Shown: positions 19,658 to 28,662 of the stretch, in pieces
How the letters are laid out: each line of letters begins with the position of its first letter
How positions within the stretch are numbered: position 1 is the stretch's first letter
Source: Nesterenkonia sandarakina
GTDB taxonomy: Bacteria > Actinomycetota > Actinomycetes > Actinomycetales > Micrococcaceae
Length of the DNA: 64,000 nucleotides
Direction: 5' to 3'
Assembly: GCF_013410215.1 (NCBI RefSeq)
Contig: NZ_JACCFQ010000001.1
Location: 186,001 to 250,000 of the forward strand
The notes under the pieces: model-generated
Database searches by the model: none
Told to the model about the DNA's origin: nothing
Seen by the model: only the letters and a program-made list of their open reading frames with translations
Made by a program: the position numbers and the translations under genes

Positions 19658-20710
19658 ATGAGACACAGAACCGCACCTCAGACCGCCTTGCTCTCGACGT
19701 TGGCTTCCCTGCTAGCGCTGGCGATGGTCGGCTGCGGCAGCTCCGAGTCGACCTCAACGGACCCCTCCCCGGGCTCTGCTCCGGAGGTGTCTGATACGCC
19801 CAGCTCCGACGCGGACTCTTCGGCCCCCGTCGATAGCGGGGACCTTGCCGATCCGCAGGAACCAGAGGGCTCAGCGTCTGAGGACGCCGAGGAGCCCCAG
19901 AGCGCCGAGGAGACCGAATCTCAGGAACGGCGGGCTCCAGGCAGCGGACTCCCGGCGGGCGGTGTCGAGCGCCTCGCAGCGGATGACTTCGACGAGGAGC
20001 GTCACGGCGAGGATGCCGAGAGGATCTACAACTCCGAAGAGGGCGACGAGGTCGGGGTTGCCGGGCTCGACCCGGTTGAGGAGCCACTTCCGGTCTACGC
20101 CGAACCCACCCGGTCCAGCGAGGTCACGGCGGAGCTCCAGTCACTCGATGCTGTGAACCTGGGCGGCCGGGAGCGTCATCACCCCAGCGGAGCCGATCGT
20201 GGCGACCTTCTGGAAGACGCCGAAGATGACCAGGGCGAACCCTCAGAGTCATCGGTTCAGGAGCAGACCTCCAACGGCGCAGCGGAGGATGAAGGCTTCT
20301 GGAGCGAGATCGAGCTCTCCGACGGCTACGGGTGGTTCCACCGCTCGGCGCAGGACGCCGGGCTCTTCTGGTTCGGCGAGACCACGGAGGTCACCGAGGA
20401 CTTCGCCGAGGTGTCTGCGGCCCAGGACCCGAACGAGCTCGCAGAGTCGGTGGGCGTCCGCGCCACCGAGAGCCGCCAGGAGCCGGGGTTGGACTCCGAG
20501 ATGGGGCCCTCCTGGGTGCTGGTGAGCGAACCGGCGGATTTCGATGAAGACTTCTATCGGATCGATGTGACCGGCGCCCTGGACGACTCGGTGGCCGGCC
20601 AACGCTTCTTCGTGCACGTGGATCAGGCTGAATACGGATACGAGCTCACCCGGGTGGAGCAGACCCTGCTCTGTTCCCGTGGCGTGGGTGAGACTGGGCT
20701 CTGCGCCTGA
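19658..20710 (+). CDS. Acidic secreted lipoprotein with an SH3-like region
   Basis: 350-residue protein. The signal peptide LASLLALAMVGCGSS gives a lipobox Cys near residue 26. Next comes a long Ser/Asp/Glu/Pro-rich linker (about residues 28-110). A region resembling a bacterial SH3 domain follows: EEPLPVYAEPTRSSEVTAEL, then after a second acidic insert WSEIELSDGYGWFHRS. The C-terminal part (about 235-350) is not recognised. Start ATG 19658 has GGGAGA 5 nt upstream. Possibly a cell-wall-bound sensor or inhibitor; function unknown. The excess of acidic residues suits a surface protein of a salt-tolerant organism, which is inference. Confidence 0.72.
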   Translation: MRHRTAPQTALLSTLASLLALAMVGCGSSESTSTDPSPGSAPEVSDTPSSDADSSAPVDSGDLADPQEPEGSASEDAEEPQSAEETESQERRAPGSGLPAGGVERLAADDFDEERHGEDAERIYNSEEGDEVGVAGLDPVEEPLPVYAEPTRSSEVTAELQSLDAVNLGGRERHHPSGADRGDLLEDAEDDQGEPSESSVQEQTSNGAAEDEGFWSEIELSDGYGWFHRSAQDAGLFWFGETTEVTEDFAEVSAAQDPNELAESVGVRATESRQEPGLDSEMGPSWVLVSEPADFDEDFYRIDVTGALDDSVAGQRFFVHVDQAEYGYELTRVEQTLLCSRGVGETGLCA

Positions 20711-20817
20711 GCGGGGCTGTGTCAGCCTCGCCCCGCGGGTGAGGGCGCTCAGCTACGCGGCTTGCGGCGCGGGTGACCCGAGCTGGCACGCCAGCATCGA
20801 TGAACTCCGCTGCAAGG

Positions 20818-20891
20818 TGCCCCCAGTGGGACTCGAACCCACACTGGACCGATTTTAAGTCGGTTGCCTCTGCCGATTGGGCTATAGGGGC
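20818..20891 (-). tRNA. tRNA with anticodon UAA (predicted leucine), class-I variable loop
   Basis: 74 nt, folds perfectly: acceptor GCCCCTA/TGGGGGC with discriminator A, three-pair D stem GCC/GGC with the leucine-type loop AATCGGCAGA, anticodon stem ACCGA/TCGGT with loop CTTAAAA (anticodon TAA at 20857-20855), variable loop CCAGT of only 5 nt, T arm GTGGG-TTCGAGT-CCCAC. CCA is not encoded (CCT follows). Leucine tRNAs normally carry a long variable arm; this one does not, though the D arm and A73 look leucine-like. It sits 2 nt downstream of a strong hairpin and after ndh on the same strand. Confidence 0.88.
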
Positions 20892-20892
20892 A

Positions 20893-20923
20893 GAAGGCGG
20901 GCTGTCATGGACAGCCCGCCTTC
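20893..20923. terminator. 13-bp perfect hairpin between ndh and the tRNA
   Basis: GAAGGCGGGCTGT (20893-20905) pairs with ACAGCCCGCCTTC (20911-20923) around a 5-nt loop. The plus strand continues TTGTT, a fair terminator for the lipoprotein gene; on the minus strand it continues TG and then the tRNA, so it would also sit between ndh and the tRNA. Confidence 0.8.
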
Positions 20924-20950
20924 TTGTTCAGTCTTGCGAGATCCTCACGC

Positions 20951-22342
20951 TCAGCCCTTGGCGGCTTCCTTCTTCTTCACGCCGCCGGCAGCCTCCTGGA
21001 ACTGGCCGTAGGGGTTCTCCAGGTCGCGCACCGGGGTGTAGTCCCGGCCCAGCACCAGTTCGTTGACCCAGCCGCCGATCACGCGGATCTTGCGCTCCAC
21101 GGTGGGGATGGCCAGTGCGTGGTAGCCGCGGTGAGCCATCCAGGCGGGGAATCCGTTGATCTTGACCTTCAGCGGGTTGCCCACGCCCTGGAACATGCCC
21201 AGACCGGCGACTGCTCCGAGGGAGTCGTGCTTGTACTCGCTGAGCTGGCCCTGGCCGTAGCTGGCCGCCAGCAGGTTCTTCGCCAGCACCTTGGCCTGCC
21301 GGGAGGCGTGCTGCGCGTTCGGCACGCAGGTGCCGTCGGGCAGTCCGCCGCCGCTGAGGTCCGGGATCGCGGAGATGTCGCCGGCGGTCCAGGCGTTCTG
21401 CAGCACCTTGCCGTCTTCATCTGCGATCTGCAGCGTGGCCGTGCCGGTGACGCGGCCGCGCGGATCCACCGGGAAGCCGGAGTTCTTGGCCACCACGTTG
21501 GCGGCCACCCCTGCGGTCCACACCAGGGTGTCGGACTCGAATCGATCAGCCTCGGACTTGTCCTTCATGTTGACCAGGCGCATCTCGCCGTCCACGACGG
21601 AGCCCAGCGAGGTGTTCAGCAGCACCTCGATGCCGCGGCCGCGCAGGTGCTCGACGACGCCGACGGCCTGGTCCTCGGTGACCTCGGGCATGACCCGACC
21701 CATGGCCTCGACCATCAGGATGCGGACATCGGTCTGGCTGATGCGCGGGTTGGCCCCCACGGCGGCCCGGATGATGTCTTCCATCTCGGCCACGGTCTCG
21801 ATGCCGGCGAATCCGCCGCCGACCACGGTGAAGGTCAGGGCGCGGGACTTGGCTTTCTCATCCGTCATCACCGAGGCGGCCTCGATGCGCTCCAGGACGT
21901 GGTTGCGCAGAGTCAGCGCCTCTTCGATGGTCTTCAGGCCGATGCCGTGCTCGGCGAGGCCCTCGATCGGGAAGGTCTTGGTGGTGGCACCGGCAGACAT
22001 GATGATGTCCTGGTACGGAAGCTCCACGGTCTCACCCTGGGAGAGCTCCACCGTGGCGGTCCGGCCGTCGTGGTCCACGGCGGTGACCTTGCCGGTGATG
22101 ATCTCGGAGTCCTTGAGGTGACGGCGATGCGAGACGACCGCGTGGCGCGCCTCGATGTGGCCGCCCACGACCTCGGGAAGGAAGGGCTGGTAGGTCATGT
22201 AAGGCATCGGGTCGACGACGGTCACGATCCCGCCGGCAGCCTTCACCTTCTTCTGAAGCAGCTGCGCGGTGGTCAGACCGACATAGCCGCCGCCGACGAT
22301 GAGAACACGGGGTTTCGCGGAAAGCGTCTGTGGGATAGCCAT
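20951..22342 (-). CDS. ndh: Type II NADH dehydrogenase (NDH-2)
   Basis: 463-residue single-subunit NADH:quinone oxidoreductase of the membrane face, feeding menaquinone without proton pumping. FAD-binding motif RVLIVGGGYVGLTTA at the N-terminus; NAD-binding motif FTVVGGGFAGIETVAE near residue 165; second FAD motif AWTAGDISAIPDLSG near 320; the C-terminus is Lys-rich and amphipathic (VKKKEAAKG), as in membrane-anchored NDH-2. Start ATG 22342 (MAIPQTLSAKPRVLIV) is preceded by TTGACC-18-TATAGG with only 9 nt to the ATG. An ATG two codons upstream is possible. Strongly expressed housekeeping promoter likely. Confidence 0.92.
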   Translation of the reverse strand: MAIPQTLSAKPRVLIVGGGYVGLTTAQLLQKKVKAAGGIVTVVDPMPYMTYQPFLPEVVGGHIEARHAVVSHRRHLKDSEIITGKVTAVDHDGRTATVELSQGETVELPYQDIIMSAGATTKTFPIEGLAEHGIGLKTIEEALTLRNHVLERIEAASVMTDEKAKSRALTFTVVGGGFAGIETVAEMEDIIRAAVGANPRISQTDVRILMVEAMGRVMPEVTEDQAVGVVEHLRGRGIEVLLNTSLGSVVDGEMRLVNMKDKSEADRFESDTLVWTAGVAANVVAKNSGFPVDPRGRVTGTATLQIADEDGKVLQNAWTAGDISAIPDLSGGGLPDGTCVPNAQHASRQAKVLAKNLLAASYGQGQLSEYKHDSLGAVAGLGMFQGVGNPLKVKINGFPAWMAHRGYHALAIPTVERKIRVIGGWVNELVLGRDYTPVRDLENPYGQFQEAAGGVKKKEAAKG

Positions 22343-22351
22343 ATGCATCAT

Positions 22352-22381
22352 CCTATACGTAGCTCGATTGTGAGTGGTCAA
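22352..22381 (-). promoter_or_regulatory. ndh promoter
   Basis: Minus strand TTGACC (22381-22376), 18-nt spacer, TATAGG (22357-22352); the ndh ATG is 9 nt further, so the mRNA has almost no leader. Confidence 0.6.
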
Positions 22382-22416: not shown

Positions 22417-23874
22417 TCAGCGATCTTGCTGGCGGTGGAGGAGCCGGTAGTGGATGGCGGCCATGCAGAGCACGGCGAGCACCAGCAGTGCGGCCGCGCT
22501 GACGGCCACCGGACCGGCCCAGTCCTGGGCTGTGCTGGACGCCTCGGGCTGGGGCATGGCGCGCGGCTCTCCCTCGGGTCCGGCCACCACCCCGGAGTCC
22601 TCGGGAATCTCATTGGTCGCGGTGTCCTCGACCTCGCCTCGGCGGTGGACTCGCACCCACTCCTGAAGCGTCGGGTACTGCGAGGCGTCGAAGGCGGGAA
22701 CATCACCGGTGACCGCATCGGCGACATTGAGCACTCCGTGCCCGTACTCGGGGTCGACCCCCTCTGCACCTTCGGAATCCGCGGTGGAGAGCACCCGGTG
22801 CTTCACCTCCTGGGCGCTGAGCTCGGGGTTTGCGGCCCAGACCAGCGCGGCGGCGCCGGCGACGATGGGCGAGGCTCCGGAGGTGCCGTTCCACTGCATG
22901 TAGTCGTCCCCCGGCAGCGCGCCGACCAGCGGCTCTGAGGCGGCGGCGATCCCGATCGCGATGCCCTGCGAGGAGGAGTCCGCGCTGATCCGGCGGGACT
23001 CATCCACCCCCGCCACAGCGATCACTCCCGGGATGGTCGCCGGGGCGCCCACGGAGAGGTGCCCCGAGGCGCGGTTGCCCGAGGCCGCGACGACGAGCAC
23101 GTCGTTCTGCTCTGCGTAGAGGAACGCCTCGTCCCATGACTCAGGCCATTCCTGGAAGCCCGAGCCCAGGGACATGTTGATGATGTCGGCGCCGTTGTCC
23201 ACGGACCAGGTCACCGCCGCGGCGATCTGCTCCTCGGTGCCGCCGCCGTAGGGGTTGGGATCCTGCAGCAGCAGCGAGACCGAGAGGATGGAGGCCTCAG
23301 GTGCGACCCCTACGACCCCGTCGTCGGGGTTCTCCGCCTGGGTCAGCTCGCGGGGGGCAGACCGGGTCTGCTGAAACTCATCGAGGGCGTCGGGGTCGAC
23401 CTCGTCCTGCCAGTCCTCGCCGTAGATCTCCTCCAGCGCGGCCTCGAAGTCCTCCCACCAGTCTTCCCACTCCTGCTCATCGAGGTCCTCGACGTTCTCC
23501 TCCACCAGGGCGGCCACCTCGTCGGCCTCTGCCGAGGTGCCGCGCCCGGCGGCCAGTGATGCCACCAGTGTGCCGTGTTCGGTGGCGATCTGGTCCACCG
23601 GGGCCCCGCCGTCGCCGGCGCCGGAGACATCGGTCCCGCCCACGACCGCACCGGAGAGGGTGGGGTGGCCCGAGTCCACGCCGGTGTCGATGACAGCGAT
23701 CGTCATGCCTTCCCCGCGGGTGGTCTCCCAGGCCTCGGTGATGCCGTAGTCCTCGAGCCAGTACTGCTGGTCTCGCCACTGATCCGCGTGCGCTGCCGGG
23801 GCGGAGAGGAACACCGCGCTGACCGCGAGGCCGGCGGCCAGCGCGGCTCCGAGCGGGCGTGCGGCTGCTGTCAT
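22417..23874 (-). CDS. Subtilisin-like (S8) serine protease, mycosin-like, membrane-anchored
   Basis: 485-residue exported protease. Signal peptide ends near AHA30; catalytic Asp63 (AVIDTGVDSGHP), His100 (EHGTLVA), oxyanion Asn267 (ASGN) and Ser332 (NGTSGASP); one transmembrane helix near residues 445-470 (VAVSAAALLVLAVLCMAA) and a short basic tail. This layout is that of mycosins, the proteases of type VII secretion, but no ESX genes are nearby. An unusually acidic, Trp-rich insertion of about 70 residues (114-186) separates the His region from the core. Its ATG overlaps the ppx stop by 4 nt, so it is co-translated with ppx. Confidence 0.88.
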   Translation of the reverse strand: MTAAARPLGAALAAGLAVSAVFLSAPAAHADQWRDQQYWLEDYGITEAWETTRGEGMTIAVIDTGVDSGHPTLSGAVVGGTDVSGAGDGGAPVDQIATEHGTLVASLAAGRGTSAEADEVAALVEENVEDLDEQEWEDWWEDFEAALEEIYGEDWQDEVDPDALDEFQQTRSAPRELTQAENPDDGVVGVAPEASILSVSLLLQDPNPYGGGTEEQIAAAVTWSVDNGADIINMSLGSGFQEWPESWDEAFLYAEQNDVLVVAASGNRASGHLSVGAPATIPGVIAVAGVDESRRISADSSSQGIAIGIAAASEPLVGALPGDDYMQWNGTSGASPIVAGAAALVWAANPELSAQEVKHRVLSTADSEGAEGVDPEYGHGVLNVADAVTGDVPAFDASQYPTLQEWVRVHRRGEVEDTATNEIPEDSGVVAGPEGEPRAMPQPEASSTAQDWAGPVAVSAAALLVLAVLCMAAIHYRLLHRQQDR

Positions 23875-24890
23875 CTCTGCTGCTCCGCACCTGACGGTGC
23901 GTCTGGGACGGCCTGGATGTGCGTGGGGCTCGGGGCGGGCGAGACCCCCTTCGAGTGCGCCAGGGACATCGCGATGCCGTCGAGGATGTCGTGTTCGGAG
24001 GCGACCGCGGAGGTGACCCGCCCGTCGGTGACCTTGTTCAGGTAGTCCAGGATGGTGCCCCAGATCAGCGCGCCGGCACCGATGACGTCGACCCTGCCGG
24101 GATGCATGATCGGCATCTGGGCTCGCACGTCTCGGGTGGAGTGCACCAGCTGATCCACCGACTGATGCAAGGTGTCGAGGTCGATCCGTGCCCCGTGGAT
24201 CAGATCCGGCTCATAGTCTTCCAGGCTCAGTGCATGCGCGGCCACCGTGGTGACGGTGCCGGCCACCCCGATGACCACCTCGGTCTCGTGCAGCGGCATC
24301 ACCTCGGAGACGTTCTCGAGGAAGGAGAGCGTCTCGAAGCTCGCCATCGAGGTCTCGGTCTCCGTGGGCGGGTCGGTGCGCATGTGTCGCTCGGTGAAGC
24401 GCACGCAGCCCATGTCGGTGGAGATGGCGTGCTCGACCCCGGCGGAGGTGCCCAGCACGAACTCCGTGGATCCCCCGCCCAGGTCTACGACCAGGATCTT
24501 GCGCTCGGCGTCCCAGTCCAGCACCGAGGCGGCCCCGGCGAAGGAGAGTCCGGCCTCCTCGCTGCCGCGGATCACCTCGGGCTCCACACCGAGCCGATGC
24601 CGGACCCCGTCGATGAATCGGTCTCGGTTCGCTACGTCCCTGGAGGCGGAGGTGGCGACGAACCGCACGGCGTCCACGTGGTGCCGACGAATCAGCGCGC
24701 CGTAGTTGTCGACGGCGGCGAAGGTGCGGGTCAGCGCATCGTCTGAGAACTCTCCGGTCTCATCCACACCCTCGCCGAGGCGGACCACGGTCATCTGCCG
24801 GACCACATCGGAGACCCGGCCGTTGTCGTGGACATCGGCGATCAGCAGTCGGATGGAGTTGGTTCCGCAATCGATGGCAGCAACTCTCAT
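23871..24890 (-). CDS. ppx: Exopolyphosphatase / guanosine pentaphosphate phosphohydrolase family
   Basis: 339-residue Ppx/GppA enzyme (sugar kinase/Hsp70 fold) that releases phosphate from polyphosphate or converts pppGpp to ppGpp. N-terminal phosphate-1 motif VAAIDCGTNSIRLLIAD; phosphate-2 motif ILVVDLGGGSTEFVLG near residue 135; EVIRGSEEAGLSFAGA contains the catalytic Glu. Length is that of the shorter actinobacterial Ppx (about 310-340) without the C-terminal HD domain. Start ATG 24890 has GGAGAAGG upstream. It follows DUF501 on the same strand, an order common in actinobacteria. Confidence 0.92.
   Translation of the reverse strand: MRVAAIDCGTNSIRLLIADVHDNGRVSDVVRQMTVVRLGEGVDETGEFSDDALTRTFAAVDNYGALIRRHHVDAVRFVATSASRDVANRDRFIDGVRHRLGVEPEVIRGSEEAGLSFAGAASVLDWDAERKILVVDLGGGSTEFVLGTSAGVEHAISTDMGCVRFTERHMRTDPPTETETSMASFETLSFLENVSEVMPLHETEVVIGVAGTVTTVAAHALSLEDYEPDLIHGARIDLDTLHQSVDQLVHSTRDVRAQMPIMHPGRVDVIGAGALIWGTILDYLNKVTDGRVTSAVASEHDILDGIAMSLAHSKGVSPAPSPTHIQAVPDAPSGAEQQR

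Positions 24891-26487: not shown

Positions 26488-28662
<2,175 letters not shown>

Follow-up and report, generated by a model that had tools for sequence, protein, structure and literature searches.

The gene at positions 20818–20891 (minus strand) of the window, i.e., of the whole 64,000-nt stretch of Nesterenkonia sandarakina DNA analyzed here, encodes a tRNA-Leu(UAA) of class I, and this class I tRNA-Leu(UAA) is a form common to much of Actinomycetota and no oddity of a single genome. Judging from sequence comparisons, it most likely works as a normal leucine tRNA and receives leucine from the usual LeuRS. We are highly confident that it is a functional class I elongator tRNA, that it is the sole reader of UUA, and that the phylum has two exchangeable classes of this tRNA.

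The gene comprises 74 nt, from G1 to A73. The Rfam tRNA model matches positions 20891–20818 on the minus strand over the full model length with 60.6 bits (E-value 1.2e-10; the gathering threshold of the model is 29 bits). ARAGORN places tRNA-Leu(taa) at 20816–20891, the two additional bases at the 3′ end being the CC of an incomplete CCA; CCA is not encoded, and A73 is followed by CCT. The acceptor stem has seven pairs, one of them U-G, while the anticodon and T stems have five pairs each. The D arm GCCCAATCGGCAGAGGC (20866–20882, minus strand) has a stem of three pairs, GCC/GGC, and the loop C-AATCGGCAG-A, with C13 and A22 unpaired and with A14, A15, GG, and A20a in place; the leucine-type D loop reads AATCGGCAGA. 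The leucine anticodon UAA (20855–20857, minus strand), found both in the sequence and by ARAGORN, lies in the loop CUUAAAA, and the T arm GUGGGUUCGAGUCCCAC occupies 20826–20842 of the same strand, as seen in the sequence and in the Rfam match. The variable loop, CCAGT (20843–20847, minus strand), consists of 5 nt, U48 being the last of them. This is the 4–5-nt loop of a class I cloverleaf and not the long variable arm of a textbook bacterial tRNA-Leu. Hence, the class I fold with UAA, CCAGT, A73, and a leucine D arm, described in the initial annotation, is confirmed by Rfam, ARAGORN, and the sequence itself.

The structure is conserved among relatives. The full complement of 20 stem pairs is present in 101 of the 118 class I gene calls from named genomes (a scan that yielded at least 118 loci), in 27 of 29 from the order, and in 30 of 30 from the phylum, the last set including the window's own copy. 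The 13.22 position is C·A in 117/118, 29/29, and 30/30 calls of the same sets, and the commonest type of the variable loop among relatives is NNAGT. Over 148 distinct sequences the stem pairs covary: pair 4:69 is CG in 124, GC in 20, TA in three, and GT in one, and pair 30:40 is GC in 116, CG in 31, and AT in one. Such pairing together with covariation among relatives shows that the cloverleaf fold is not due to chance.

All 29 relatives from the order, fetched by similarity, carry class I Leu(UAA) with a nearly identical D arm, and so the loss of the arm is not private to the host genome. The doubt expressed earlier, that the gene might represent a trait of the lineage, was justified, and the trait is wider than had been guessed (29/29 in the order and 93/197 in the class). 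Among the 197 sampled genomes of the class, the exact class I UAA pattern is found in 93 and a stricter exact class II UAA pattern in 29. No genome has both, against a chance expectation of 13.7 (P 1e-9, with relatedness ignored). The other 75 genomes match neither exact pattern, and some of them carry divergent forms, such as the class II UAA gene of genome G348, which was located by its position. With two mismatches allowed, the class I pattern matches 158 of the 197 genomes; it then mixes UAA, CAA, and UAG genes and hence gives no count of UAA genes. In this form it also matches 6 of the 15 genomes with class II UAA genes that we call Streptomyces-type (family f21, 6.1–9.9 Mb, a label that rests partly on the bldA-like sequence), and these sites could conceivably hold a divergent class I gene, with UAA or another anticodon. 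At the level of the phylum, the class I pattern lacking the D-loop constraint is found in 85 of 396 genomes, although a few of the matches did not look tRNA-like by eye. Two other counts were discarded. The first class II pattern, matching 301 of the 396 phylum genomes, proved to be mostly noise by a reversed control and gave way to the stricter one, and the 147 of 149 genomes matching the 74-nt query were not accepted as a count of UAA tRNAs, as the weaker matches may be other tRNAs.

In the scan of named genomes, ARAGORN confirmed class I Leu(UAA) in 117 of the 118 loci listed (all but L310). By title, 103 of these loci belong to Actinomycetota, 14 to other phyla, and one is untyped. The listed holders include Mycobacterium, Mycolicibacterium, Nocardia, Gordonia, Rhodococcus, Corynebacterium, and Bifidobacterium, as well as Nocardioides, Microbacterium, Arthrobacter, Amycolatopsis, Pseudonocardia, Streptosporangium, and Acidimicrobiaceae. 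No Streptomyces occurs among the 118 matches listed. The titles from outside Actinomycetota among the matches listed are those of Planctomycetota, Rokubacteria, a deltaproteobacterium, Armatimonadota, Synechococcus, and others; 13 of the 14 are metagenome bins and possibly mis-binned. One Rokubacteria bin has two tRNA-Gly–tRNA-Cys clusters, one of which is followed by class I Leu(UAA) (L278, 594–670) and the other, at the end of L430, by a seeming class II Leu(UAA) that is truncated where the contig stops, which may again reflect mis-binning. Three metagenome-bin contigs (L299, L312, and L365) carry phage-like arrays of 26–34 ARAGORN tRNA genes in 4–8 kb, each array including a class I Leu(UAA).

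Three complete chromosomes were scanned with a loose class II UAA pattern, with seven matches in IMCC26103, none in Mycolicibacter MYC123, and three in Mycolicibacterium sediminis; a Nanopelagicaceae bin gave eight. At these 18 sites ARAGORN found no Leu tRNA, while it detected 7 of 7 control class II UAA genes. The class I distribution is also in agreement with a remark in the accessible part of a study of Mycobacterium tuberculosis, where tRNA-Leu-2, 3, and 5 are named as tRNAs with long variable loops (PMC11541572).

The host genome (3.02 Mb in two contigs, completeness given as 99.92) yielded 47 tRNA matches, typed with ARAGORN, that represent 45 distinct sequences. Of these, the gene at 20818–20891 alone has the anticodon UAA, so that no second, class II tRNA-Leu(UAA) is present among the 47, and the remaining four leucine tRNAs, with anticodons CAA, UAG, CAG, and GAG, are all of class II. 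With these four the UAA tRNA shares A73, A14, A15, U48, GG, A20a, the three-pair D stem, and the unpaired 13.22. It differs from them in its 5-nt variable loop (12–17 nt in the class II tRNAs), and in having C13 and C-G at 12-23 instead of G13 and G-C.

In the accessible part of PMC9976931, the identity of Escherichia coli tRNA-Leu is ascribed to A73, A15-U48, G18G19, A20a, and the contacts between the D and T loops, and U8-A14 is reported as crucial in another bacterium; no correlation was seen between charging and the sequence or folding of the long arm, and activity is retained by minimal tRNAs devoid of it. The host UAA tRNA has the entire set, that is, U8, A14, A15, GG, A20a, U48, and A73, and it is complete in 114 of the 118 class I gene calls listed from named genomes, in 28 of 29 from the order, and in 30 of 30 from the phylum. 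The plain set is also present in three non-leucine tRNAs of the host, Ala(ugc), Gln(uug), and Lys(cuu), making 8 of 45 distinct sequences together with the five leucine ones; if the unpaired 13.22 is added, exactly the five leucine tRNAs remain. As bacterial LeuRS recognizes A73 and the core formed by the D and T loops (U8-A14, A15-U48, G18G19, A20a) rather than the long arm, the ordinary LeuRS would charge the class I UAA tRNA with leucine.

The host genome has a single LeuRS above the family cut-off. In the phylum, LeuRS occurs in two forms (L441–L470). The first aligns with the query end to end. The second is mostly 936–1052 aa long and aligns in three pieces with about 48% identity, the breaks being near query residues 142 and 578. 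The forms were assigned from the matches, one piece, or two at 62% or more, as opposed to three near 48%. In 30 genomes, out of 31 with G479 left out because of its weak partial match only, their spread relative to the tRNA class was 11 and 6 versus 8 and 5, and we reject a link between the LeuRS form and the tRNA class.

The tRNA gene stands at the end of a block of genes whose order, eno-ftsB-DUF501-ppx-ndh-tRNA, is conserved. From their sequences, we take the ORFs at 20951–22381, 23871–24890, and 26488–27768, all on the minus strand, to be ndh (an NADH dehydrogenase-like gene), a ppx/gppA-like gene, and eno (enolase-like), respectively. The first of these, with uncertain first codons, is the conserved upstream neighbor, its frame ending 59 bases before the tRNA, and eno marks the far end of the block. 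The closest relatives of the window's ndh are those of Citricoccus (64%) and Pseudarthrobacter (62%). The gap between ndh and the tRNA contains an inverted repeat (20893–20923) of 14 perfect pairs around an ATG loop that stops one base short of the 5′ end of the tRNA and has no T run on the minus strand; it was read from the sequence, and a simple terminator scan of 20700–21100, which found no terminator, was silent on it.

At least one of ndh, the S8 protease, ppx, DUF501, ftsB, and eno lies near the tRNA in 61 of the 118 class I gene calls listed from named genomes, in 15 of 29 from the order, and in 8 of 30 from the phylum (the window's own copy included), as counted in the fetched flanks, some misses being due to short flanks of 1.5 kb. 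The neighbors of class I UAA genes are on the same strand as the tRNA in all but four instances. The same block in the same order is found in three Streptomyces-type genomes, where a class II UAA gene follows ndh on the same strand at 5.9, 5.7, and 5.6 kb, and in G348 a class II UAA gene is situated about 190 bases past ndh. None of these neighbors was seen in the 1.5-kb flanks of the 20 other class II gene calls read from the phylum. In the genomes read, therefore, the class I and class II UAA genes share one locus in different families; one class may have replaced the other in place.

The class II genes of the three Streptomyces-type genomes (L421, L422, and L423) have variable arms of 15–17 nt and the D loop AATGCAGA lacking the usual GG, and we presume from their sequence that they are bldA. 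The window tRNA resembles bldA in its UAA anticodon, in the conserved eno-ftsB-DUF501-ppx-ndh block on the same strand, and in the rarity of its codon, whereas its structure is class I and not the class II structure of bldA. UUA is indeed very rare in the host, with 11 of 70,030 codons in genes called by a heuristic GC3 rule: 1 of 18,585 in the window and 10 of 51,445 in a sample of ten 20-kb stretches. The chromosomal part of these codons has 7 in 67,287. One of the sampled stretches comes from the second contig (L390), which is perhaps a plasmid and has lower GC (0.609); it has 4 TTAs in 2,743 codons, compared with 6 in 48,702 in the nine chromosomal stretches. The comparison with bldA made in the initial annotation is thus justified in part, by the position of the gene and the rarity of the codon.

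One may still ask whether the tRNA acts as a gate similar to that of bldA, being charged with leucine but limiting, by its scarcity or late maturation, the translation of the few UUA-containing genes. The rarity of UUA and the common locus would be compatible with such a gate, as would the nature of some TTA-containing frames, presumably NRPS-like, ABC substrate-binding-like and, on the second contig, MFS-like ORFs by our reading of their sequences. On the other hand, some of the ten sampled TTAs are in probably over-extended gene starts, and the enolase (L372_4) of a relative with the same class I tRNA contains 18 aligned UUA sites. According to the accessible part of PMC4255298, moreover, the developmental role of bldA may stop at Streptomycineae, and outside this group TTA shows no bias towards gene starts and can be found in growth-associated genes. 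We consider the gate unlikely, and a regulatory role in general possible but unsupported. As an elongator, the class I tRNA would decode the very rare UUA by itself and assist in the reading of UUG.

To see what UUA means in lineages with the class I tRNA, we used mutual alignments of 172 sequences, comprising the window, the ten host stretches, and class I loci of actinobacteria. Alignment columns at TTA (n = 297) had a weighted leucine fraction of 0.53, followed by valine (0.09) and isoleucine (7%). At control columns leucine accounted for 44% (CTG), 47% (CTA), 35% (TTG), and 21% (ATG). As the frames were taken from stop to stop, antisense frames contribute noise, and many TTA columns are not leucine. 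In clean TTA columns, all or nearly all of 14–41 homologues have leucine; in particular, leucine is seen in 37 of 37 and 40 of 41 homologues at TTA columns of DUF501 from IMCC26103, and in 18 of 18, 19 of 19, and 19 of 19 at those of enolase from the Nanopelagicaceae bin. Since the TTA columns are mainly leucine, the alignments indicate that UUA is leucine in relatives in which the class I tRNA is the only UAA tRNA seen.

The same columns bear on the suggestion of charging by a different synthetase and a consequent reassignment of UUA, for which we found no support. Seryl- and alanyl-tRNA synthetases ignore the anticodon, the former requiring the long arm and G73 and the latter G3-U70. Although the class I shape is unusual for leucine and the plain identity set also occurs in the Ala(ugc), Gln(uug), and Lys(cuu) tRNAs of the host, pair 3-70 is C-G here and the UUA columns of relatives are mainly leucine; in addition, UUA is absent from the main text of a genetic-code screen (PMC8629427). 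Reassignment is therefore very improbable. A pseudogene or an unacylated regulatory RNA is hardly credible either: a simple scan, limited to sigma-70-like promoters and thus not covering all promoter types, found none in 20700–21100, but all stems pair and covary, and no other UAA gene turned up in the genome, whose completeness is given as 99.92. The remaining suggestion of the initial annotation, a leucine tRNA without its arm, agrees with the leucine D arm, A73, A15/U48, the single UAA gene, and leucine at UUA columns. We thus prefer the ordinary class I leucine tRNA, which is probably expressed and charged with leucine.

Class I leucine tRNAs are not confined to UAA. When 11 genomes were searched directly for class I Leu(CAA), seven proved to have it (L471–L477), namely, Mycolicibacter, Mycolicibacterium, Corynebacterium, Amycolatopsis, Streptosporangium, Trueperella, and IMCC26103, and it was not found in the host genome, Nocardia mikamii, Citricoccus, and Rothia. 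A class I leucine tRNA with anticodon UAG is seen in family f102 (G614, G658, and others) among the two-mismatch matches listed. The accessible part of PMC6582537 likewise mentions one tRNA-Leu(TAG) with a short loop from a cluster of mycobacterial tRNA genes.

Similar genes are carried by phages. With the UAA gene plus CCA as the query, 167 phage records were retrieved at an E-value of 1e-5, 20 of them, by tally, from Mycobacterium phages, and many of the best 40 of the 167 are annotated as tRNA-Leu. Among the matches listed, enterobacterial phages reach 80.5% identity to the UAA gene. The matches include other leucine anticodons, the match in Citrobacter phage Moogle reading UAG; the phage genes examined were those of Moogle (Leu UAG, CAA, and UAA) and of Streptomyces phage Birchlyn (Leu UAA). 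On viral contigs the class I UAA pattern occurs in at least 120 stretches, and ARAGORN identified all 120 listed as class I Leu(UAA). The phage and window genes share the class I shape; C13·A22 is present in 116 of 120 listed viral gene calls and NNAGT loops are common, and the window tRNA has this phage-type combination of D arm and loop. The phage genes deviate more, having the full identity set in 77 of the 120 listed and several anticodons. Another parallel is mitochondrial tRNA-Leu(UUR), also a UUR reader without the long arm whose identity depends on A14 and A73, according to the accessible part of PMC9976931; it is organellar and has its own LeuRS, and we do not claim common descent. 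As a tentative scenario, in our estimation rather doubtful, a lineage of class I tRNA-Leu common to phages and actinobacteria could have taken over the decoding of UUR, and in places UAG, leucine codons in Actinomycetota by displacing class II genes at their own sites, bldA being an example of a reversal.

Our search of the literature, in full text with few subscription papers, found no description of class I tRNA-Leu as an actinobacterial trait, nor of a locus common to the class I UAA gene and bldA; what comes nearest are the mycobacterial tRNA-Leu(TAG) of PMC6582537 and the M. tuberculosis remark of PMC11541572. Such genes are annotated as plain tRNA-Leu, e.g., in phage records. In the accessible parts of reviews, tRNA-Leu is listed as class II and bacterial tRNA genes are called structurally uniform (PMC7609411, PMC4033280), and a tRNA-seq pipeline, as far as its accessible text goes, builds in the assumption of class II tRNA-Leu (PMC6297222). 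An exception extending over much of the phylum, including Mycobacterium, Corynebacterium, Bifidobacterium, and Nocardia, touches tRNA annotation, tRNA-seq, and the design of suppressors. The UAA gene of the phylum, often at the ndh/ppx/eno locus, exists in two seemingly exchangeable classes, class I here and class II, bldA-like, in Streptomyces-type genomes, and the locus shared with bldA provides a natural test of the purpose of the long arm. If the scenario of a class I takeover is true, tRNA-Leu would have switched its structural class at one locus with LeuRS being indifferent to the change, and Streptomyces bldA would be one outcome of this process.
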